In this document: positions 3,677 to 11,857 of the stretch, one piece after another | Numbering within the stretch: the stretch's first letter is position 1 | Layout of the letters: each line of letters starts with the position of its first letter | Origin: Armatimonas rosea | Lineage (GTDB): Bacteria > Armatimonadota > Armatimonadia > Armatimonadales > Armatimonadaceae | Direction of reading: 5' to 3' | DNA length: 64,000 nucleotides | Assembly (NCBI RefSeq): GCF_014202505.1 | Contig: NZ_JACHGW010000001.1 | Span: forward strand, 1,178,001 to 1,242,000 | Notes under the pieces: generated by a model | The model's database searches: none | What the model was told of the DNA's origin: nothing | Seen by the model: only the letters and a program-made list of their open reading frames with translations | Made by a program: the position numbers and the translations under genes

Positions 3677-5818
3677 TCACAGCCGCACACTTCGTCGCAC
3701 AATGCGCACATCCGTGCCCGAGTCCACCGACACAGGAATCCAGCCGGCGGGGCGCGGTGGAGCGTTTGGTGGCAAGCCAGGGAGCACCATATCCACGATC
3801 AGCATCCCTGCGGGCGGCCCTTCCACGGAGAGAGTCGCCGTCTTTGGGGGCCCAAACCAGCGCAGGTTGGTGAGCGTGGGGAGCTTCTTGCCTTCCAGTT
3901 CGAGTGAGGTGGGGCTATCGAAGCGCAGCATCAGCTCTGTGGCGCGTTCCGGGAGCGTGATCGTGATGCTTTGGCCATCGCGCGTGACGGTTGGAGTGGG
4001 GAGCTTGAGGCTTGGTGTGGGTGCGGAAAAGGCGGGGAAGTCGTCGAGCATTGTCGACGCAGGATTCTCGCCGAGCACGGATTTTGTCCAGGCATTGGGC
4101 TTTTGCAGGCTCACCCACTCTGCCTTGCTCGTATCGGTGTCTTCCCGGTAGAGCAGGGCGCTGGTGCGTGGGCCCGTCTGTTGCGTGCCGACTCCAAAGC
4201 ATAGCAGGCCCACGAGGAGAAGCGTCAGCGACGGCAGGAGCAAGAGGGGCTTGGTGGTCTCCTGGATGAGGGGCAGGAGTGGGAGCAGGCCAAAGGCGGC
4301 GAGTACACCCAAGAACGGCGGGAGCCCGAAGCCCAGGAGCAGTGCGAGGCTATGCCAGACGGGCGCAAGAAACACTAGGAGTGGCACGGCGGCGAGCCAG
4401 GGCTTGTCGAGGGCGAGGGCGGCGAGCGCGAAGACCAGCGGCCAGAGGAAGAGATAGGTCGCGCCGGGGAGGAGAGCGGAGGTGGCGAGGAGGGCCACGA
4501 CCCACCAGAAAAGCGCCCCGAGTGCGAGTAGCTTGCCTGTAAAGCGTCGCAGCACCGGCCCCCACTCCAGCCAGACAAAGGCCAGTGTTGCCACCAGGAG
4601 CGTCGCCTCGAACCAGCGGACACCGTACGGATCGCGGTTGGGGACGGACAGGCGGAAGGGGCCAACGGCAAAGCCCACCAGGGTGGCGATCAATGCGCCG
4701 GTGACGAGAGTTCCGAGCCCCATGCCAAGGCCTGTAAAGAATGCCTTTGGTGCGTCTGCTTCTTTTTTGTTGCGCCAGAGCAGACCGACGAAGAGTGCGA
4801 TGGCAACTAGCATGAGCGGCCACGTGAGGCTGGCGGGATAGGTCAGCTCAAGCCGGCCCAGCAGATCGAAGTAGAGCGCCTCACCTTGGTCGGGCTTGGT
4901 CAGTGCGGCCAGATCGGCGGTGAGAAAGCGCTTGCTCAGGGCCAGCGCACTGGCACCGTGCTGCTGAAGGCTGCGCTGGTCCAGGTTCTCGGGCGTGTCC
5001 AGCGCCGAGTGGTAGCTCTGCCAGCGCCCCACAAAGGCGAAGTTCAGGCCCGCCATCCCCGCCTTCTTAAACACCGTCAGGTCCGTGTCGTTGGGCAGGG
5101 TTTTATAGAGCGCGTACATCAGCGACGACGCATGGGGGCTGGGGCAGGTGGTAGCGAACTCACGGATGAGCGGCAGGTTGCCCTCGCTGGTCTCGAACAT
5201 GAAGACGGGGCCACCGCCGCCACGTGCCTCGAAGTTCAGCACAAGCGTTGGGGAGGTCTCGGGTTTCTCCGCGAGGCTGTCTACATAGCCCTGCGCCCCG
5301 AGCAGGCCGAGCTCCTCCGCATCGGTGAGGAGCACACGGAGGGTATTTTTAGAAGCCCCCGACCCAAGCGCCCGCATCGCCTCCAGCAGCGCTGCGACCC
5401 CGGCGGCATCGTCGCCCGCGCCGGGGCCACTGAGGTGCGAGTCGTAGTGCGCAGCGAGGAGTAGCGTGCCAGTCGGGGCCGTGCCGGGTCTCTCCGCGAC
5501 AATGTTCTCGACACTCGCCATGCGAAGCGCCCCGTCGTGCTCGTCCCGGTGCGCGAGGCGTCTTTGGACCGTCGTTTGAAAGCCGAGCTTGGTCAGCTCC
5601 GCCACCAGGTAGTCCCGCACCCGGTCGTGCTCCGGGGTCCCCGGCGGGTGCGGTGCCCGCGCGATCTGGCGAACGTGCACCATCGCCCGCTCTGCAGAGA
5701 ACACATGGGTGGGGGCACTCGCCGCCACGGGTGAAGGTGGCTCCTGCATCCACAGCACAAACGCCGTGATCAGTGCAAGCAGAGCCAAGATACCCAAGGG
5801 CCGCTGGAGCTTTTTCAT
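3677..5818 (-). CDS. M28 family membrane-anchored aminopeptidase
   Basis: This 713-residue protein has an N-terminal signal anchor (residues 7-24), an M28 zinc-peptidase domain (about 40-310) and a C-terminal half with about eight membrane segments (340-540), followed by a soluble tail. Zinc ligands and catalytic residues are visible: H124 in AAHYDSH, D136 in GAGDDAAG, E168/E169 in TDAEELGL, E197 in NFEARG and the late histidine in YHSALDTPENLD. The arrangement resembles ERMP1/Fxna-type peptidases. ATG at 5818 is chosen over an upstream codon because it directly precedes the signal anchor and lies six bases after a TACAAT -10 hexamer, implying a leaderless mRNA. The product probably degrades peptides outside the cytoplasmic membrane. 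Confidence 0.88.
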   Translation of the reverse strand: MKKLQRPLGILALLALITAFVLWMQEPPSPVAASAPTHVFSAERAMVHVRQIARAPHPPGTPEHDRVRDYLVAELTKLGFQTTVQRRLAHRDEHDGALRMASVENIVAERPGTAPTGTLLLAAHYDSHLSGPGAGDDAAGVAALLEAMRALGSGASKNTLRVLLTDAEELGLLGAQGYVDSLAEKPETSPTLVLNFEARGGGGPVFMFETSEGNLPLIREFATTCPSPHASSLMYALYKTLPNDTDLTVFKKAGMAGLNFAFVGRWQSYHSALDTPENLDQRSLQQHGASALALSKRFLTADLAALTKPDQGEALYFDLLGRLELTYPASLTWPLMLVAIALFVGLLWRNKKEADAPKAFFTGLGMGLGTLVTGALIATLVGFAVGPFRLSVPNRDPYGVRWFEATLLVATLAFVWLEWGPVLRRFTGKLLALGALFWWVVALLATSALLPGATYLFLWPLVFALAALALDKPWLAAVPLLVFLAPVWHSLALLLGFGLPPFLGVLAAFGLLPLLPLIQETTKPLLLLPSLTLLLVGLLCFGVGTQQTGPRTSALLYREDTDTSKAEWVSLQKPNAWTKSVLGENPASTMLDDFPAFSAPTPSLKLPTPTVTRDGQSITITLPERATELMLRFDSPTSLELEGKKLPTLTNLRWFGPPKTATLSVEGPPAGMLIVDMVLPGLPPNAPPRPAGWIPVSVDSGTDVRIVRRSVRL

Positions 5819-5848
5819 GGGGCTATTGTAGAGCAAAAAGGGGAGCGT

Positions 5849-6301
5849 TTACCGTTGGGTATGGCGGCGTATCGCGCGGACGATCTCTCGGTAGTCAAAG
5901 AAGCTGGTGGTGGACTGAGGGCCGGGCTCCAGGACCTTGAGCTTTTTGTCCAGGATCACCGTCACCGTGAATATCTCAACGGCTTGCTTTGAGCCACGCT
6001 GCGTCACGGGCATCACCCCACGGCCCGACCACACGTCCACGTAGTGCGTCGGCTCCTCTTCGTCGGGCTCTAGGAAAAATAGACACTCCCTCCCGGGTGA
6101 GAGCTCAAAGACACGGTTGCGATCTGTTCCAACGAAGAAGGGGAGATAACGCGCCGGTCTTCCTTTGAAGGCTTGTTTTACCTCGATCAAGGCAAGGCCC
6201 GAACTGGTCACGAGCTCGACTTGGCCGCGGAGAATAAAGGGGCTCAGCTTGACAAGCTCAGGGAACTCGACACGGCCAGGCTTCAGGTGGAGCTTTTTCA
6301 T
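5849..6301 (-). CDS. Hypothetical protein, 150 aa
   Basis: I do not recognise this family. The protein is soluble-looking with no signal peptide, rich in beta-forming stretches (LRGQVELVTSSGLALIEVKQ, AVEIFTVTVILDKKLKV) and ends in a basic IRRHTQR tail. It starts MKKLHLKPGRVEF at 6301. The bases before the start (TAGAATAGCCCC) repeat almost exactly the promoter/start layout of the M28 gene downstream (TACAATAGCCCC), so both appear to be transcribed from their own leaderless promoters. The gap to the M28 gene is only 30 bases. Confidence 0.6.
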   Translation of the reverse strand: MKKLHLKPGRVEFPELVKLSPFILRGQVELVTSSGLALIEVKQAFKGRPARYLPFFVGTDRNRVFELSPGRECLFFLEPDEEEPTHYVDVWSGRGVMPVTQRGSKQAVEIFTVTVILDKKLKVLEPGPQSTTSFFDYREIVRAIRRHTQR

Positions 6302-6315
6302 GGGGCTATTCTAAA

Positions 6316-6810
6316 TCAAAAAAGGGGATGGCTACGATTTTTTAGCTCTTCTCTCTGCAAATGGAGGAATTCGGTCAGTGAAGTGGCTTCCTCAGAGATC
6401 GTGCCTTCTTCGTCAAGGTGATAGATTTTGCCTCTGTTATTGCCGTCCATTGCAATGCAGTAGCAGTAGCTGTCGTCATAAAGAAAGGGAAAGAGTGCGG
6501 ATGCCGGGACTGGGGATTCAAGTAGGTCGGGATCGGCAGGGCAGAGATCACGTCGGGAGATATCGTGATGATAAAGCTGTATGAGAGTTGCCAGTGGGTA
6601 CCAGTGATAGAGACCATAGAGGCGAAAGCCATAGAACGCCTCGTTGCTCATGCCGTCGTAGCGTTGGTGGAGTGCCAGAAGCTCGGGAGGGACGGGCGTG
6701 TCTGGTGGTGCGGTGAGTCCCGGATTGAGGTGGCTTCGTGAGAGGCCGTGGGGCTCTAGGTCGGTGAGAAGCTGCTCGAAAATAGAGAGCATGTCGAGAT
6801 CACCAGGCAT
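6316..6810 (-). CDS. SMI1/KNR4 (SUKH) family protein
   Basis: This protein of about 164 residues resembles the SUKH superfamily: PPELLALHQRYDGM near the start, the FRLYGLYHWYPL strand, and FPFLYDDSYCYCIAMDG followed by GKIYHLDEEGT. SUKH proteins often act as immunity proteins for polymorphic toxins or bind partners in signalling. No toxin gene is adjacent. The start is uncertain: ATG 6810 overlaps the end of the SDR gene by 11 bases, and a second ATG at 6792 (MLSIFEQLL) is equally plausible. The overlap suggests co-transcription with the SDR gene. Confidence 0.65.
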   Translation of the reverse strand: MPGDLDMLSIFEQLLTDLEPHGLSRSHLNPGLTAPPDTPVPPELLALHQRYDGMSNEAFYGFRLYGLYHWYPLATLIQLYHHDISRRDLCPADPDLLESPVPASALFPFLYDDSYCYCIAMDGNNRGKIYHLDEEGTISEEATSLTEFLHLQREELKNRSHPLF

Positions 6811-8113
6811 AGGGTTCAAAGTCCTTGAGGAAGTGCCCAAAGCGGGGCTCGTCGGGGGAGGTCAGGCCCTGCGCGATAGGATCGTAGAGGCGCGCCATGC
6901 CGTCCACCGAGTCCAGCGGCGTATAGAAGTTTTTATCGTCGCGCAGGTGGGTCGCCTTCGGGTAGGGGTTTTCGTCGGTGATCCAGCCGGTATCGACCGC
7001 GTTCATGTAGATGCCCTCGCGTGCCCACTCCTGTGCGCTCGTGCGAACCAGCATATTGAGCGCCGCCTTTGCCATGTTGGTGTGCGGGTGCCGCTCGGTC
7101 TTGCTGGCGCGGTTGAACTGCCCCTCCATTGCCGATGCCTGGACCACAAAGCGCCGTGCGTGCGGCGAGCGCAGGAGGGCGGGCTTGAGGCGGCCGGTGA
7201 GCACAAAGGGCGCGGTGGCATTGACAAGCTGCACCTCCAAGAGCTCCAGCGTGCTCACTTCATGCAGGCTCAGTGCCCAGGAGTTGGTCGGGCGCTTGTC
7301 CAGCGGCTGGCCGTCGTAGTCCCGCTCCCCGGCGGGGAAGTAGCGCTCGACTCCGGGGAGGTTTCCGGTGTAGCCGCTCTGCGCCTCCAAGAGCCAGGGG
7401 GCGCTCTCTTTGGCGATCAGCTCCTGGTAGAACGCGCGTGGGCGCTTGACGGTCTGGGCGGCGTTGTTGACCAGGATATCCAGGTGTGGCAGGCGGGCGT
7501 TGAGGGCATCCGCGAAGGCCTCGACACCGGGCAGGTTGCGCAGGTCCAGCCCCTCCAGGGTCAGCCGCTCCCGCCAGAGCGCCACATCGGGCTCTTGGGC
7601 GAAGCGCTCGGCGGCATCGCGGGGAAAGCGGGTGGTGACAGTCACGCTGGCACCGTCGCGCAGTAGTCGCAGGGCGAGCTGGTAGCCAATCTTGATGCGC
7701 CCGCCGGTCACGAGGGCAAAACGCCCTGTCAAATCGACACTCTGGTGGCGCTTCTCCCAGCTCTTGGCGGCGCAGGTCGGGCAGAGGCGGTGGTAGAAAT
7801 GATGGAGCTGGGTGTAGGACTGCTTGCAGATGTAGCACGGCTGCGCCTTGGCCAGCACAGCACTGCCCTCACCCAGCAAGCGCGGCTCGTTGATTTGCTG
7901 CTGCTGGCGCACGAGCCCCGTCTGCGCCTGCGCCGCCCACGACTGCTCCCGCGCTGTTTCTCGTTGCGACTGCCGCTGCCCCCGCTTGCCCTCGCGGTGG
8001 ATCTTGGCGACCAATCCCTTGAAGCGCTCGTGCGCATCCATCACCGACGGGTCCTCGGCGATCTCTTGCAGTACGCGTAGCGTGGTCTCTAGCTCGTCAT
8101 CGGTAAAGGGCAT
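6800..8113 (-). CDS. SDR-family oxidoreductase with N-terminal zinc-finger-like extension
   Basis: This 437-residue protein has an unusual two-part layout. Residues 1-125 are basic and glutamine-rich and include CYIC at about 92 and LCPTC at about 109, a four-cysteine motif likely to bind zinc. The rest is a Rossmann-fold short-chain dehydrogenase: VTGGRIKIG (cofactor glycine loop), ILVNNAAQT, VVQASAMEG. At the YxxxK catalytic site the sequence reads HTNMAKAAL, so the lysine is kept but tyrosine is replaced by threonine. Long insertions separate the core strands. Substrate and activity are unknown; the tyrosine loss may mean a changed mechanism or a binding role. The tRNA block starts 12 bases upstream. 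Confidence 0.8.
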   Translation of the reverse strand: MPFTDDELETTLRVLQEIAEDPSVMDAHERFKGLVAKIHREGKRGQRQSQRETAREQSWAAQAQTGLVRQQQQINEPRLLGEGSAVLAKAQPCYICKQSYTQLHHFYHRLCPTCAAKSWEKRHQSVDLTGRFALVTGGRIKIGYQLALRLLRDGASVTVTTRFPRDAAERFAQEPDVALWRERLTLEGLDLRNLPGVEAFADALNARLPHLDILVNNAAQTVKRPRAFYQELIAKESAPWLLEAQSGYTGNLPGVERYFPAGERDYDGQPLDKRPTNSWALSLHEVSTLELLEVQLVNATAPFVLTGRLKPALLRSPHARRFVVQASAMEGQFNRASKTERHPHTNMAKAALNMLVRTSAQEWAREGIYMNAVDTGWITDENPYPKATHLRDDKNFYTPLDSVDGMARLYDPIAQGLTSPDEPRFGHFLKDFEPYAW

Positions 8114-8124
8114 GGCGATTGGGT

Positions 8125-8198
8125 GGAGAGAGGGAGGACTCGAACCTCCGACTTCCGGTTTTAGCGTAACCGGCCTCTTCCTACTGAGTTACTCCCCC
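8125..8198 (-). tRNA. tRNA-like gene A (non-canonical anticodon loop)
   Basis: On the minus strand 74 nt fold as acceptor GGGGGAG with CTCTCTC (two G-U pairs), a weak D arm, a 5-6 bp anticodon stem (CGGTT/AACCG), loop ACGCTAA, six variable bases and a perfect T arm (GGAGG, TTCGAGT, CCTCC). If the loop is read normally the anticodon is GCU (Ser), but base 33 is C instead of U and the long variable arm expected of tRNA-Ser is missing. A CCA end is not encoded at the expected place. First of a three-member block. Confidence 0.6.
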
Positions 8199-8216
8199 CA
8201 CAACCTTCAGGGATTG

Positions 8217-8285
8217 GAAAGCGGGCGGGATTCGAACCCGCAGCTCGATGTGGAGTCGTGTTACTTCCCTTGACACTACCGCTTT
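8217..8285 (-). tRNA. tRNA-like gene B (possible Trp CCA, degenerate)
   Basis: This 69-nt element has acceptor AAAGCGG/CCGCTTT, extendable outward by two more pairs, and a perfect T arm (GCGGG, TTCGAAT, CCCGC). The segment between the D stem (GTGT...ACAC) and the T stem is only 16 nt, too short for a normal anticodon arm plus variable loop. If the D arm is relaxed, a loop CTCCACA with anticodon CCA can be drawn on a stem with one mismatch. Identity is therefore uncertain. Confidence 0.5.
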
Positions 8286-8327
8286 CCACAGACTCTATCG
8301 TATGTACGTGCCGATTGTTAAAGACGA

Positions 8328-8429
8328 GGAGAGAGACGGGACTCGAACCCACACGTCCGCTACGCAAGCGGTGCGCTTCCGGCACCCGCAGGTACTCTGC
8401 GGCGCGCTTCCGTTACGCAACTCCCTCCC
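8328..8429 (-). tRNA. tRNA-like gene C with duplicated D and anticodon arms
   Basis: This 102-nt element keeps acceptor GGGAGGG/CTCTCTC and a T arm (GTGGG, TTCGAGT, CCCGT). Between them the motif GGAAGCGC followed by a CCGC hairpin occurs twice: first with CCGCA, loop GAGTACC, TGCGG, then with CCGC, loop TTGCGTA, GCGG. It therefore looks like D arm-anticodon arm-D arm-anticodon arm inside one acceptor. A class II tRNA-Tyr (GUA) with a long variable arm is an alternative, but base 33 would be A and the length is excessive. Confidence 0.5.
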
Positions 8430-8455
8430 GGCTCTTTATACCGTAAAATACGGGC
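8430..8455. promoter_or_regulatory. Divergent promoter between tRNA block 1 and paralog 1
   Basis: Only 26 bases separate the 5' end of tRNA-like gene C and the ATG of the plus-strand protein gene. On the plus strand TAAAAT (8444-8449) lies six bases before ATG; on the minus strand TATAAA lies about five bases before the tRNA. The two promoters overlap, so expression of both directions is probably interdependent. Confidence 0.45.
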
Positions 8456-9334
8456 ATGGACGAAAGGCTCGTGGCGCTTAAAGATCCGACCCTCCCCGTG
8501 GTACGCATTGAAGAGATCTGGCAGGGGATACGGACCCTCGACGGCCCTATTGCAGGAGCGATTCTTCTCCATCCCAACTGTTCGCCCACGCTCTTCTGGG
8601 AGCTTTTTCTGCACCATCCCGCGCTGGCGGCGAGCAACCCTTCGTTCTCGCTGCTTCTCTTGGAGTCCGAGAGCCTGACCCACCAGAGTGCCTGGACCCT
8701 ACACCATCTCCTCCGTCGCCCCGATATCCCCGCCTCCGTTTTGGAACTTCTCACCCACGCCGAAGCCCGAAAAGTAGCACAGGAGGCGCGTCACCATCAG
8801 GCATTCGCAGGGGAGGTCGTGGCGGGCTGGGAGGCTGAGCTGCTTCAGTTGCTTGCCAGCGAGCTCCATCGAGACCGACGCTTGGTCTGGCTCGCACGGG
8901 TGGGGGCGCTGCCGGAGGCGCTCAATGCTGCCTTGCCCTATCCCATCCGACCGACTCCGCTCCCACCTCGCTCTCCTCGGGGGATCCCGCCGTACGAGGA
9001 CTGGGAGCCGCGCTGGCAGTACAATGCTCGGCTTGGACAGCTTGTACTGGAAGACGGGCTAGCTCTCCCCGAGCGAGACCAGCGCCATGCGATCTTAACC
9101 TTCTTCGCCTGCAGCGACGGTGAGCTGGCGCCTTTTCTTGCCCTTGCCCAAGTTGCGGCACGGCGCTTGCTCACCAACGCGACTGTCGCTCCGGTTTGGT
9201 ACAAGCGCTTGGGAGCCGCCCTCAACCACCACTTGCCCACCTCCGCTCTCCCGCGCCTCACCGACGATGGCAACCGCTGGGTACGCGCCGTGGCCCAAAA
9301 ACGCCTCGCCGATCCGAAGTGGCGCTTATTTTGA
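8456..9334 (+). CDS. Paralog 1 of the tRNA-associated repeat-like protein family
   Basis: This 292-residue protein belongs to no family I can name with confidence. It shares with the proteins at 9799 and 11090 an N-terminal block (HPNCSPTLFWELFLHHPALAA then NPSFSLLLLE), a middle helix pair with RRLVWLARVGALPEALN, and a C-terminal signature DDGNRWVRAVAQKRLADPKW. Short leucine-rich helical units with NP and HPNCPP turns resemble leucine-rich-repeat-variant or HEAT-type solenoids, which bind proteins or nucleic acids. No signal peptide or membrane segment is seen. It begins 27 bases from tRNA-like gene C, divergently. A role connected with the tRNAs is suggested only by the threefold repetition of this arrangement. 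Confidence 0.8.
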   Translation: MDERLVALKDPTLPVVRIEEIWQGIRTLDGPIAGAILLHPNCSPTLFWELFLHHPALAASNPSFSLLLLESESLTHQSAWTLHHLLRRPDIPASVLELLTHAEARKVAQEARHHQAFAGEVVAGWEAELLQLLASELHRDRRLVWLARVGALPEALNAALPYPIRPTPLPPRSPRGIPPYEDWEPRWQYNARLGQLVLEDGLALPERDQRHAILTFFACSDGELAPFLALAQVAARRLLTNATVAPVWYKRLGAALNHHLPTSALPRLTDDGNRWVRAVAQKRLADPKWRLF

Positions 9335-9345
9335 CCCCACCCCAG

Positions 9346-9365
9346 CCTTCCCTGCCGCAGGGAGG
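9346..9365 (+). terminator. GC hairpin after paralog 1
   Basis: The hairpin CCTTCCCTG-CC-GCAGGGAGG lies 12 bases after the stop codon. There is no T-run, so it may only be a transcript-end stabiliser or a weak terminator. The following bases up to 9422 contain two copies of GGGTGGGTTC-type sequence resembling a broken T arm. Confidence 0.35.
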
Positions 9366-9422
9366 GTGGACGCGAGCTGTGCGAGTGGCCGGGTGGGTTC
9401 GAGCCGGGTGGGTTCTGCCGTA

Positions 9423-9494
9423 GAAAGCGGGCAGGATTTGCACCTGCACTTTGGGGTTATGAGCTCCCTTGTGCTTCTATTACACCACCGCTTT
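9423..9494 (-). tRNA. tRNA-like gene D (Met CAT anticodon)
   Basis: This 72-nt element has acceptor AAAGCGG/CCGCTTT (extendable with G-1:C73), D stem GTGT/GCAC and anticodon loop CTCATAA with U33, anticodon CAU and A37. The anticodon stem GGGAG/CCCCA has two mismatches. The T loop is TGCAAAT instead of TTCGAAT, an uncommon change at U55. It resembles tRNA-Met but is degenerate. Confidence 0.6.
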
Positions 9495-9513
9495 CCAGAG
9501 GCATTTTATCAAA

Positions 9514-9586
9514 GGAGAGAGACGGGAATCGAACCCGCATCTCCGGCTTGCAAACCGGCGTGGTTCCCTTCACACCACTCCCTCCC
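9514..9586 (-). tRNA. tRNA-like gene E (8-base anticodon loop)
   Basis: This 73-nt element has acceptor GGGAGGG/CTCTCTC, a perfect D stem TGGT/ACCA and a perfect T arm (GCGGG, TTCGATT, CCCGT). The anticodon arm is CCGG-TTTGCAAG-CCGG; no register gives a normal seven-base loop with a five-pair stem. The eight-base loop contains both UGC (Ala) and GCA (Cys). Eight-base loops are known from frameshift-suppressor tRNAs. Confidence 0.55.
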
Positions 9587-9601
9587 TGAGCTGGGCATTT
9601 G

Positions 9602-9674
9602 GAAAACGAACCAGAGTCGAACTGGTACCTCCCGACTGAGAATCGGGCATGCTTCCATTGAACACCACCGCTTT
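9602..9674 (-). tRNA. tRNA-Glu (CTC)
   Basis: This is the most regular member of the array. All 73 nt fold into a cloverleaf: acceptor AAAGCGG/TCGTTTT, D stem GTGT/GCAT, perfect anticodon stem CCCGA/TCGGG with loop TTCTCAG (U33, anticodon CUC, A37), and T arm ACCAG, TTCGACT, CTGGT. The acceptor can be extended by G-1:C73 and one more pair. The A1:U72 end is unusual for tRNA-Glu. Confidence 0.75.
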
Positions 9675-9706
9675 CCGGGGAGAGTGTACCTGAGAGAGTG
9701 CGAAGA

Positions 9707-9777
9707 GGAGGAAGGCGGGACTCGCACCCACATCTCCGCGATTGCAGTACGGCGTGTTTCTCTACACCACAACCTCC
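9707..9777 (-). tRNA. tRNA-like gene G (Cys GCA anticodon)
   Basis: The element is about 71 nt with D stem GTGT/ACAC, anticodon loop CTGCAAT (U33, GCA, A37) on stem CCGTA/CGCGG with one mismatch, and T arm GTGGG, TGCGAGT, CCCGC. The acceptor pairing is poor (GAGGTTG with CTTCCTC, five of seven). U55 of the T loop is G, as in gene D. Confidence 0.5.
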
Positions 9778-9798
9778 AAGGTATTTTATCAGTCAGGC
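9778..9798. promoter_or_regulatory. Divergent promoter between tRNA block 2 and paralog 2
   Basis: Twenty-one bases separate tRNA-like gene G from the ATG of paralog 2. Read on the minus strand, TAAAAT lies about five bases before the tRNA; its complement TATTTT serves as a possible -10 on the plus strand. The layout repeats that at 8430-8455. Confidence 0.4.
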
Positions 9799-10698
9799 AT
9801 GAATCTCTGGGGCCCTCTCCACAACCTTTCTACTAGCGGTGATGCGCTGGCACAGCTCTACTATGAGATACCCCGTCGGGGTGCACAAGGGGCGAGCTTG
9901 CTGGAGGCACTGGCGCGGCATCCGAACTGTCCCCCAAAGATTATTCGGCAGCTCTTGCTGTCGGTGCCACAGGCAGTGACGGAGAACCCTGCCTGGTGCT
10001 TGCTTATGCTGGAGGGAGGCATTCTAGGCGCACAAGAGCCCGTTCTTGAGCAACTTTGTGTGGGGAGTCTTCCCTATTCCTACTTAGAGCTACTCTGTCA
10101 GCATCCCAATGCTCAGGTGCGGGCACAGGTGGCGGAGCATGTCTCCTATGCGGGGAGCGTGTCGGGAGACCTTGATGAGGCACTCTTGCAGAAGCTGGGG
10201 ACGCTTCGGCGCGATGGACGGCTTGTCTGGCTGGCGCGGGAGGGATTTTTCCCCGCACGACTCCAAGACTATCTGCCACACCCCGTGGTCGTGTCCCCTG
10301 CCCATTGCCAGAGCTTTCGAGCGACGCGGCTAGACCCTTGGGTTGAGGTAATGGACTTACTGAGTGCCAAGAGTGGCCAAAAAGCCTCATCGGAAGAGAT
10401 GCTCATTCACTATGCCCGAACCCACGGCGAGCTGGTGCCGCTCCTTGCCCTCACTGTAACTCCCTCAAAGAGTGTCCTGCGCGAGCTTTATCGGAGTGTT
10501 CTGCCTTGGAAGCGGCTGGGAATCGCCTTAAATCCCCAAGCACGGTATGTCGAGAACTGGTACTACACGAGTCCATTGGATTCTGACACAGAAGATAGCG
10601 CCCGAAGTATCCTCGGCTACCTCGCCAACGACGGCAACCGCTGGGTGCGTGCGGTGGCCCGGCAGCGTCTCGCTGATCCCAGCTGGCGTTTGTTTTAA
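9799..10698 (+). CDS. Paralog 2 of the tRNA-associated repeat-like protein family
   Basis: This 299-residue protein is homologous along its whole length to the one at 8456. The shared blocks are HPNCPPKIIRQLLLSVPQAV with NPAWCLLMLEGG (residues about 38-75), RDGRLVWLAREGFFPARLQDYLPHPVVVSP in the middle, and NDGNRWVRAVARQRLADPSWRLF at the C-terminus. ATG 9799 is chosen because homology with the paralogs begins there; the in-frame codon at 9742 lies within the tRNA. The stop codon abuts tRNA-like gene H, whose 3' end starts at the next base. Function unknown; helical solenoid likely. Confidence 0.8.
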   Translation: MNLWGPLHNLSTSGDALAQLYYEIPRRGAQGASLLEALARHPNCPPKIIRQLLLSVPQAVTENPAWCLLMLEGGILGAQEPVLEQLCVGSLPYSYLELLCQHPNAQVRAQVAEHVSYAGSVSGDLDEALLQKLGTLRRDGRLVWLAREGFFPARLQDYLPHPVVVSPAHCQSFRATRLDPWVEVMDLLSAKSGQKASSEEMLIHYARTHGELVPLLALTVTPSKSVLRELYRSVLPWKRLGIALNPQARYVENWYYTSPLDSDTEDSARSILGYLANDGNRWVRAVARQRLADPSWRLF

Positions 10699-10769
10699 CG
10701 GAGCGGGCAGGAGTCGAACCTACACCTCTTCAATGCCGTTGAAGCGCGCTTCCATTGCGCCACCGCTCC
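10699..10769 (-). tRNA. tRNA-like gene H (GGC in loop, C33)
   Basis: This 71-nt element forms a near-perfect cloverleaf: acceptor GGAGCGG/CCGCTCC, D stem GCGC/GCGC, anticodon stem CTTCA/TGAAG, T arm GTAGG, TTCGACT, CCTGC. The loop ACGGCAT places GGC (Ala) at 34-36, but base 33 is C, not the almost invariant U, and the G3:U70 pair required by AlaRS is absent (A3:U70). It may therefore be structurally sound but not a standard elongator. Confidence 0.6.
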
Positions 10770-10983
10770 CCGTCCGCCGATTGGAAATCGGCGTCTGCAA
10801 TGGCGTTCCGCCACAAAGCCCGTGCACCCTCTGGGTGCGGGCTCCCCAATCTACCTTCCTTCGCGAAGCCGTGCCCACAGGGTGCACAAGTGGCCGAGTT
10901 CCACGAGGCCGAGGGAGGCAGCCTGGAACAGGCTTCGCGGCGCTTGCGCCACTGCTGACGCCCAATTCCATTGGGCGGACAAA
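10770..10983. repeat. Palindrome-rich spacer between tRNA-like genes H and I
   Basis: The spacer starts with a perfect hairpin (CGCCGATT-GGA-AATCGGCG, 10776-10794), whose core GATTGGAAATC recurs in the anticodon arm of tRNA-like gene I and in the repeats at 35.3 and 41.1 kb. Further short inverted repeats follow (GTGCACCCTCTGGGTGCGGG, TTCGCGAAG). I see no gene in it. Confidence 0.5.
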
Positions 10984-11054
10984 GAAGGCGGGCGGGAGTC
11001 GAACCCGCACTGCGAAGATTGGAAATCCAAGCCGCTTCCATTGCTTACCGCCTT
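10984..11054 (-). tRNA. tRNA-like gene I (Gly TCC anticodon)
   Basis: This 71-nt element has acceptor AAGGCGG/CCGCCTT (extendable with G-1:C73) and a perfect T arm (GCGGG, TTCGACT, CCCGC). The D arm is short. The anticodon loop TTTCCAA has U33, UCC and A37, but the stem TTGGA/TCTTC has only three pairs. The same bases can instead form the tight hairpin GATT-TCC-AATC that recurs elsewhere as a repeat core, so this arm may have been rebuilt by a repeat sequence. Confidence 0.5.
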
Positions 11055-11089
11055 CGGTGACATTGTATCTGCCTAAGGTATAAAAGCTC
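11055..11089. promoter_or_regulatory. Divergent promoter between tRNA block 3 and paralog 3
   Basis: On the plus strand TATAAA lies five bases before the paralog 3 ATG. On the minus strand TACAAT lies about six bases before the 5' end of tRNA-like gene I. This is the third repetition of the divergent layout. Confidence 0.45.
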
Positions 11090-11857
11090 ATGCGTAGCAC
11101 GGACCGAGAACTTCTGAAGCAAGCAGAGCTCAATAGCGACGAGATCAAGCGGCTCTACAGTCAGCTTGACACGCTCCACGGCTACGAGCGCACCGGAGTG
11201 ATTGAGACCTTAGTAGGGAGTCCGAACTGCCCGCCGGACATCTATACGGCACTCTTTCCGCTGGCACCAAACCAGGGGCTGCTGAATCCCGCGTGGCCTC
11301 TGTTTCTGATAGAAGGACAGTTTCTGCATGAGCTCGACCGCGCCTTTATTGCGACATGCCTGCGCCATGGCAACACAACTTCCACGTTTTTAGAGGCGCT
11401 CACCTCCCATCCTGTGGGCTGGATTGCCCGCGCGGCGCGCCAGCACGTGACTCTGGTGGGGGAGGCGAGCGCCGACTGGGAGCAGGAGCTTCTCGACGAT
11501 TTTACGACACGGCTCTGGCGCGATAGCTCGCTTGTCTGGGTGATGCGTGCCGGAGCGCTCCCCGATGCCATCAACCGACGACTACCGTATCCCCTCCAGC
11601 CGCAGCCGCTCTTGCCCGAGGGGGAGCGCCAGAAAGTGCTAGAGAAGATTGCTGGGCAGCGTGGGACGAGCCTGGCGACTGTGCTCGCCATTGCACACAT
11701 GCAAAATCCTCTCCAAAAATGGGCAGAGCACCCGCACTGGGAGCGGCGATTTGCCTTGGCTTTAAACCCGACGATAAAACTAATGAAGAAGCGGCTCCAG
11801 CAGGATGGGCATGTCTGGGTACGTGCGGCGGCACGAGGAAGTGAGGGGATTTTATGA
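11090..11857 (+). CDS. Paralog 3 of the tRNA-associated repeat-like protein family
   Basis: This 255-residue protein is a more diverged member of the family seen at 8456 and 9799. It keeps SPNCPPDIYTALFPLAPNQG and NPAWPLFLIEG near residues 45-75, the SSLVWVMRAGALPDAINRRLPYP block and the C-terminal DGHVWVRAAARG, but ends without the ADPxWRLF tail. Its stop overlaps the GH16 gene start by four bases (ATGA), so it is probably co-transcribed with that gene. No recognised domain. Confidence 0.75.
   Translation: MRSTDRELLKQAELNSDEIKRLYSQLDTLHGYERTGVIETLVGSPNCPPDIYTALFPLAPNQGLLNPAWPLFLIEGQFLHELDRAFIATCLRHGNTTSTFLEALTSHPVGWIARAARQHVTLVGEASADWEQELLDDFTTRLWRDSSLVWVMRAGALPDAINRRLPYPLQPQPLLPEGERQKVLEKIAGQRGTSLATVLAIAHMQNPLQKWAEHPHWERRFALALNPTIKLMKKRLQQDGHVWVRAAARGSEGIL

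Follow-up and report, generated by a model that had tools for sequence, protein, structure and literature searches.

We analysed a stretch of 64,000 nucleotides (nt) of Armatimonas rosea DNA (contig NZ_JACHGW010000001.1, positions 1,178,001 to 1,242,000), hereafter referred to as the window. Nine tRNA-like elements, e1 to e9, are located on its minus strand between positions 8125 and 11054 and form blocks of three (8125-8427), four (9423-9776) and two (10699-11054). The 5′ ends of the blocks lie 28, 22 and 35 bases, respectively, from the ATG codons of the plus-strand genes beginning at 8456, 9799 and 11090, which code for solenoid-like proteins P-A, P-B and P-C. A gene for an atypical short-chain dehydrogenase/reductase (SDR) is located on the same strand as the elements, with its start codon 10 nt past e1. 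The features are given below together with the evidence for each; R1 is a covariance model that was trained on 18 elements, with e3 excluded from training.

6316-6840, minus strand: SMI1/KNR4 (SUKH-1) protein, 3′ of the SDR gene and overlapping its 3′ end; a candidate, uncertain member of the unit (Pfam, 3.5e-06)
6800-8113, minus strand: atypical SDR with a basic N-terminal helix, a CxxC...CxxC zinc ribbon and an SDR domain with TxxxK (T345-N-M-A-K349) (Pfam adh_short, 8e-17; alignments; AlphaFold2 model)
8125-8198, minus strand: e1, tRNA-like, loop ACGCTAA (GCT, C33), short variable loop, G-1:C73 (ARAGORN, Rfam, R1)
8217-8285, minus strand: e2, tRNA-like, degenerate anticodon arm, G-1:C73 (Rfam, 30.4 bits; tRNA-Sec model, 25.6 bits; R1, 58.3 bits)
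8328-8427, minus strand: e3, tRNA-like, second anticodon arm (insert of ~30 nt), G-1:C73 (R1, 54.1 bits; sequence)
8456-9334, plus strand: P-A, helical solenoid (LRV/HEAT-like) of 292 amino acids (aa) (paralogy; AlphaFold model; Pfam LRV, E=0.71)
9423-9494, minus strand: e4, tRNA-like, loop CTCATAA (CAT) (ARAGORN, Rfam, R1)
9514-9584, minus strand: e5, tRNA-like, 6-nt anticodon loop TTGCAA (ARAGORN, Rfam, R1)
9602-9674, minus strand: e6, tRNA-like, loop TTCTCAG (CTC) (ARAGORN, Rfam, R1)
9707-9776, minus strand: e7, tRNA-like, loop CTGCAAT (GCA) (ARAGORN, Rfam, R1)
9799-10698, plus strand: P-B, 299 aa paralogue of P-A (sequence comparison)
10699-10769, minus strand: e8, tRNA-like, loop ACGGCAT (GGC, C33), A3:U70 and not G3:U70, abutting the P-B stop codon (ARAGORN, Rfam, R1)
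10984-11054, minus strand: e9, tRNA-like, loop TTCCAAT, weak D and anticodon stems (ARAGORN, Rfam, R1)
11090-11857, plus strand: P-C, 255 aa paralogue (sequence comparison)

ARAGORN identified seven of the nine elements as tRNAs. When the window was searched with Rfam model RF00005, seven elements were matched at E<=0.013, six of them above the gathering score and one just under it; e2 exceeded the gathering score in a genome-wide search. All nine were recovered by R1, which by itself does not tell elements apart from the canonical tRNAs of their own genome. The layout of nine minus-strand elements near the starts of three paralogous genes, first proposed from the letters of the DNA alone (the sequence-only reading), is thus borne out. 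The overlapping divergent promoters proposed with it are not: a single sigma-70-like match was found versus 0.8 expected, i.e., at the level of chance. That reading also placed the beginning of the unit at 8125 and overlooked the SDR gene, with which the unit extends further and which turned out to be the more conserved partner.

The fold of the protein encoded at 6800-8113 is clearly that of an SDR, as judged from its AlphaFold2 model (pLDDT 89.6; Z 26.1 and rmsd 2.4 over 231 residues against tropinone reductase). The catalytic YxxxK is replaced by T345xxxK349, which is nearly invariant across 30 aligned sequences. When genome contigs were scanned with the SDR alignment, 80 loci were obtained, and tRNA-like genes were found upstream of the SDR gene in Armatimonadota, Cyanobacteria, Actinomycetota, Pseudomonadota, SAR324, Desulfobacterales, Holophagae and on a Deinococcus plasmid, where one SDR has such a gene. 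ARAGORN placed them on the same strand directly 5′ of the SDR gene in two cyanobacteria, PMG_196, Parabeggiatoa, SAR324, three actinomycetes and one member of Desulfobacterales; in a Holophagae genome, they are located 450-830 nt upstream, with a small gene in between. Within the order of A. rosea, the SDR homologues of genomes G020 and G017 likewise have an element directly upstream, and G009 carries a solenoid protein, the SDR and four consecutive elements on one contig, with the elements downstream of the SDR gene.

In a maximum-likelihood tree, 65 SDRs were split into clans of 25 and 40 sequences by a branch with a support of 100/99. Elements accompany 15 of the 25 SDRs of one clan and none of the 40 of the other, the element of G009 being located just downstream (Fisher p=1.6e-8, a statistic that ignores kinship and shared ancestry). 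Gain and loss of elements required 7 changes on the tree versus 13.7 after shuffling, and none of 500 shuffles gave a value as low. The SDR is a more conserved and stable partner of the elements than the solenoid proteins are.

Since the elements lie on the same strand as the SDR gene and close to its start in many phyla (10 nt in the window, 14-60 nt in most; spacers are mostly 10-60 nt overall), they could also be cis-acting 5′ leaders; cleavage of the tRNA-like fold by tRNA-processing enzymes would then determine where the SDR mRNA begins and how much of it there is. Elements also precede a DUF6745 gene in locus L177. In L109 (1236-3804), they are found with a pair of paralogues that match no Pfam family: a four-element array lies in front of the first and a T-arm remnant in front of the second. 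However, arrays of two to four exceed the need of a leader, and elements in the window, on contig C8 of the same genome and in G020 are often divergent from or behind solenoid genes and cannot lead them. We consider a leader role quite unlikely.

Repeat proteins recur next to the SDR: leucine-rich repeat (LRR) proteins are encoded in L106, L107, L109 and L112 and LRR-DUF6745 or DUF6745 proteins in L113 and L177, and solenoid-type neighbours of the LRV or LRV-like kind in the window and in L068 of G020. Similar small proteins (RHGDVL..GEASGH.HR) are encoded near the elements and the SDR in Holophagae (L177, 3610-3936) and SAR324 (L113, 2052-2396). DUF6745 was considered as an anchor of the elements, which it adjoins in L113 and L177, and rejected: there are no elements within 1.5 kb of Armatimonadota DUF6745 loci, and the anticodons of a Deinococcus array at a DUF6745 locus (L191) are normal. 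DUF6745 genes also adjoin STM4011-STM4015 radical-SAM clusters on Deinococcus and Methylobacterium plasmids (L195, L190, L191, L194).

The elements differ from canonical tRNAs, for which the canonical set of one genome, that of A. rosea, served as the control. The D-loop ends in GGAA in 27 of 40 elements, while GGAA is present in 3 of 61 canonical tRNAs. A G:C or C:G pair at positions -1:73 was found in 22/40 elements versus 3/57 canonical genes; for the elements of the source genome, the figure is 9/10 versus the same 3/57 (two tRNA-His genes and a family-like gene on contig C6). GC, CG, UA, AU, GU and UG all occur at -1:73 of the elements, and 33/40 have some standard pair there, as read from the genes, which does not imply retention of -1 in the mature RNA. 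Since canonical genes of this genome often carry a chance T:A, the latter count separates the two groups weakly, and good separation is achieved only by G:C/C:G. An anticodon loop of 7 nt with U33 is present in 21 of 37 elements versus 60 of 61 canonical tRNAs. The T-loop TTCRANY is present on the cloverleaf, with a few elements deviating, the T stem is of 5 bp in 99.5% of cells, and the variable loops are of 3-7 nt.

AlaRS, SerRS and EF-Tu place well-known requirements on their tRNAs. Ala-like elements e8 and c8 (the latter from contig C8) carry A3:U70 in place of the G3:U70 seen in all three canonical Ala tRNAs of the genome; e1 carries a Ser anticodon but has a short variable loop and no long variable arm. 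Judged by these requirements, the elements should be poor substrates for translation. They could instead be dedicated non-proteinogenic tRNAs that, once charged, supply amino acids to a tRNA-dependent enzyme. Their anticodons concentrate on Ala, Glu, Ser, Gly, Asp and Cys; G-1:C73, a hallmark of tRNA-His, occurs in 9/10 elements of the source genome, and a paired -1:73 would, as in tRNA-Sec, disfavour EF-Tu. Yet G3:U70 is absent from the Ala-like elements examined and a long variable arm from the Ser-like ones, -1:73 is other than G:C in some phyla, and no aminoacyl-transferase was found among annotated neighbours, which makes such a role very unlikely.

RF00005 scores of the elements (27-58 bits) are low compared to those of the remaining tRNAs of the genome (mostly 50-78 bits). 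The anticodon arms of e2 and e9 are weak, and canonical Ala, Glu, Ser, Cys, Trp and Met tRNAs are encoded elsewhere in the genome. All this would fit ordinary tRNA genes that decay beside SDR and solenoid genes. The stems, however, covary. In a plain MAFFT alignment that was not fitted to structure, covariation was 0.711 versus 0.266 in shuffled alignments, with 100 versus 33 double-changed cells, and was lost when pairing partners were slid; in a model-based alignment of 43 sequences, three non-family rows included, it was 0.825 versus 0.265. Compensatory changes thus preserve all four stems across phyla. Together with the -1:73 pair and GGAA loop as shared signatures and the recurrence with one SDR clan, this argues against decay, which we regard as improbable.

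The anticodon loops bear on one more explanation, in which the elements are decoys or sensors of anticodon damage: loops of real tRNAs (Ala, Glu, Ser, Met, Cys, Trp, Gly and Asp) would titrate or report an anticodon nuclease, and the proteins would act on the result. Indeed, the c8 loop ATGGCAT is that of the genome's tRNA-Ala(GGC) and the e6 loop TTCTCAG that of tRNA-Glu(CTC), with acceptor identity lost. Identical loops (ACGGCAT/ATGGCAT/ATTGCAT) are found across phyla, in the window, on C8 and in L106, L109 and L189, and YrlA RNA has been proposed to inhibit an anticodon nuclease by competition (PMC7790460). A gene of a cyclic phosphodiesterase also lies beside the SDR gene in L110, although L110 itself has no tRNA-like element. 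Several elements, however, have loops of 5-6 nt or unrecognisable ones, and no nuclease was found in the loci examined. We therefore hold a decoy function to be unlikely. The phosphodiesterase gene of L110 (2065-2565, an Aureispira metagenome-assembled genome) codes for a 2H family protein and ends 10 nt before the SDR gene.

P-A, P-B and P-C are mutually paralogous (E values of 2e-36, 1e-30 and 3e-25; identity of 27-36%). The AlphaFold model of P-A is an all-helical chain (pLDDT 72.7). P-A and P-B match Pfam LRV (PF01816) under the cut-off and P-C does not match it, while homologues from C8 and G020 are over the cut-off. No confident match to P-A was obtained in a profile search of the PDB or with Foldseek. 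There was no match at E<=1e-10 in 291 genomes of the phylum beyond its own genome and none in the genome-contig, plasmid and phage collections; kin outside its own genome (in G008, G009 and G020) were found solely by profile search. With no P-A match in phage or plasmid records and with RNAs conserved next to a chromosomal SDR across phyla, the suggestion of a phage or plasmid tRNA array is not supported.

The sequence-only reading also treated a tRNA block plus a protein as a duplicated module. In agreement with this, a fourth unit is present on C8, where c8 (L017, 4545-4615, minus strand) faces a solenoid homologue (4649-5455). In G020, which belongs to another family, an element (L068, 5314-5385) is divergent from an LRV protein (5499-7025), behind which lie genes for MoxR and a DUF2201 VWA protein. 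The C8 unit must have been gained or lost within the genus, since G008 of the same genus has a uracil-DNA glycosylase (UDG) locus matching the C8 neighbourhood without the tRNA and no LRV homologue on that contig. The module does not hold throughout: some solenoid homologues have no tRNA beside them, and the link to solenoid genes is genuine but loose. UDG, which adjoins the C8 unit, was rejected as a second partner: no tRNA lies at the UDG loci of G008, G018 and G009, and the tRNA adjoining the G020 UDG gene is a canonical CCA-ending tRNA-Glu. Tandem LRV paralogues are also located directly 5′ of MoxR and DUF2201 VWA genes, in the G020 order and without tRNA-like elements, on contig C4 of the A. 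rosea genome, G000 (L016, 4409-7643).

In an order-wide scan of 19 genomes, the pattern GGAA...GTTCRANTC had many chance matches. The hits recognised as tRNA-like structures were elements of the window, C8, G009, G017 and G020, each adjoining an SDR or solenoid gene, and three further G000 tRNAs whose anticodon loops are canonical (Gly TCC, Ile GAT and, on C6, Gly GCC). The last of these (L238, 4445-4517; G000 C6:28444-28516) has a GGAA D-loop and overlaps the end of a HEAT-like open reading frame (ORF). Since it shares that neighbour type and, with e2, e4 and e6, acceptor AAAGCGG and G-1:C73, its sequence suggests that it may be a further member of the family. Within a normal tRNA array of G000 (L020, 4860-5310; C1:962-964 kb), an ORF of ~130 aa separates a 5′ fragment of tRNA-Asn from an intact copy and resembles the insertion of a homing-type endonuclease. 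A tRNA gene with a CAT-like anticodon arm (L021, 4460-4590, minus strand; C8:146.5 kb) has a long insertion, possibly an intron, after the D arm. A REP-like palindromic repeat (GGCGTCTGCA...GCCGATTTCCAATCGGCG) occurs genome-wide near tRNAs and genes, including 10775-10990 of the window, L018 (~6080-6140) and L020 (5925-5970).

Because similar RNAs precede the same SDR in many phyla, we tentatively attribute the elements to an RNA-protein system and not to spare tRNAs or debris. We favour, with a probability of roughly 45%, the view that they are non-translational tRNA mimics that work with the SDR and, in the lineage of the window, with LRV/HEAT-type solenoid proteins; of the uses offered by the sequence-only reading, a non-translational one fits the evidence best. 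Just as tentatively, we propose that these noncoding RNAs represent a tRNA-mimicking class that is widespread and so far undescribed and that, in many bacterial phyla, makes up a conserved system outside translation together with an atypical SDR and repeat proteins. The elements would be transcribed together with the SDR gene and cut out of the transcript at their tRNA-like ends; the zinc ribbon and N-terminal helix of the SDR and/or the solenoids would bind them. Within a ribonucleoprotein, their probable role would be that of a folded ligand or scaffold. By analogy with Ro60, a helical-repeat protein that holds Y RNA with its tRNA-like domain, the complex may sense or handle tRNA-related RNA.

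Several observations weigh against this view. No ARAGORN tRNA adjoins the LRV homologues on contigs C4, C7 and C3 of G000 or those in G008 (C206) and G009 (C364), which partly matches the outcome that the sequence-only reading named as refuting, and 10 of the 25 SDRs of the element-linked clan have no upstream element, so that neither the solenoid nor the SDR link is obligatory. TxxxK is common to both SDR clans and is therefore not tied to the RNAs; the basic N-terminus was likewise rejected as an RNA-linked feature, being equally basic in both. About half of the elements keep a plausible anticodon loop, which a pure scaffold would not need. It is also conceivable that the elements are ancient tRNA genes on which selection has relaxed.

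If the favoured view is true, programs that find tRNAs mislabel a conserved class of noncoding RNA as odd or duplicate tRNAs, a dehydrogenase-like protein family acquires an RNA partner, and culturable hosts (cyanobacteria, actinomycetes and a Deinococcus) become available for testing directly whether RNAs of tRNA shape act outside translation, a suspicion long raised by Y RNAs and irregular tRNA polycistrons. Even if the RNAs are leaders or decoys, their conserved linkage to the SDR calls for explanation. The open-access literature, which omits most subscription papers, yielded no account of this linkage, and the novelty of the linkage is accordingly provisional.

Among known systems, a classical SDR enzyme is matched by the 6800-8113 protein in fold but not in the catalytic YxxxK. 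SDR5C1, a subunit of mitochondrial RNase P, provides a precedent for an SDR within a tRNA-binding complex; the likeness considered is that of the common SDR fold, and no TRMT10C or PRORP partner was seen. tRNA-Sec has an 8-bp acceptor stem, a long variable arm and a UCA anticodon; the elements share the 8-bp stem if the -1:73 pair is counted but lack the long variable arm and the UCA anticodon. Allo-tRNAs have 8/4 or 9/3 arms and a long variable arm (Mukai 2017, reviewed in PMC7609411), and irregular tRNA polycistrons with varied anticodons include some tRNAs with an extra -1 base and some that E. coli enzymes do not aminoacylate (PMC7609411). Like these, the elements are irregular, polycistronic bacterial tRNA-like genes with varied anticodons; they differ in their 7/5 arms plus the -1:73 pair, short variable loop and tie to a specific SDR. 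The nearest system in concept is YrlA, an RNA with a tRNA-like domain whose gene lies beside that of the RNA-binding protein Rsr/Ro60 (PMC7790460). There was no TROVE (Rsr/Ro60) match in the subset of neighbouring proteins scanned, and no Rfam Y RNA model matched the elements, which form a whole cloverleaf and have an SDR as the partner; in both systems, however, an RNA with a tRNA-like fold is encoded beside a protein gene.

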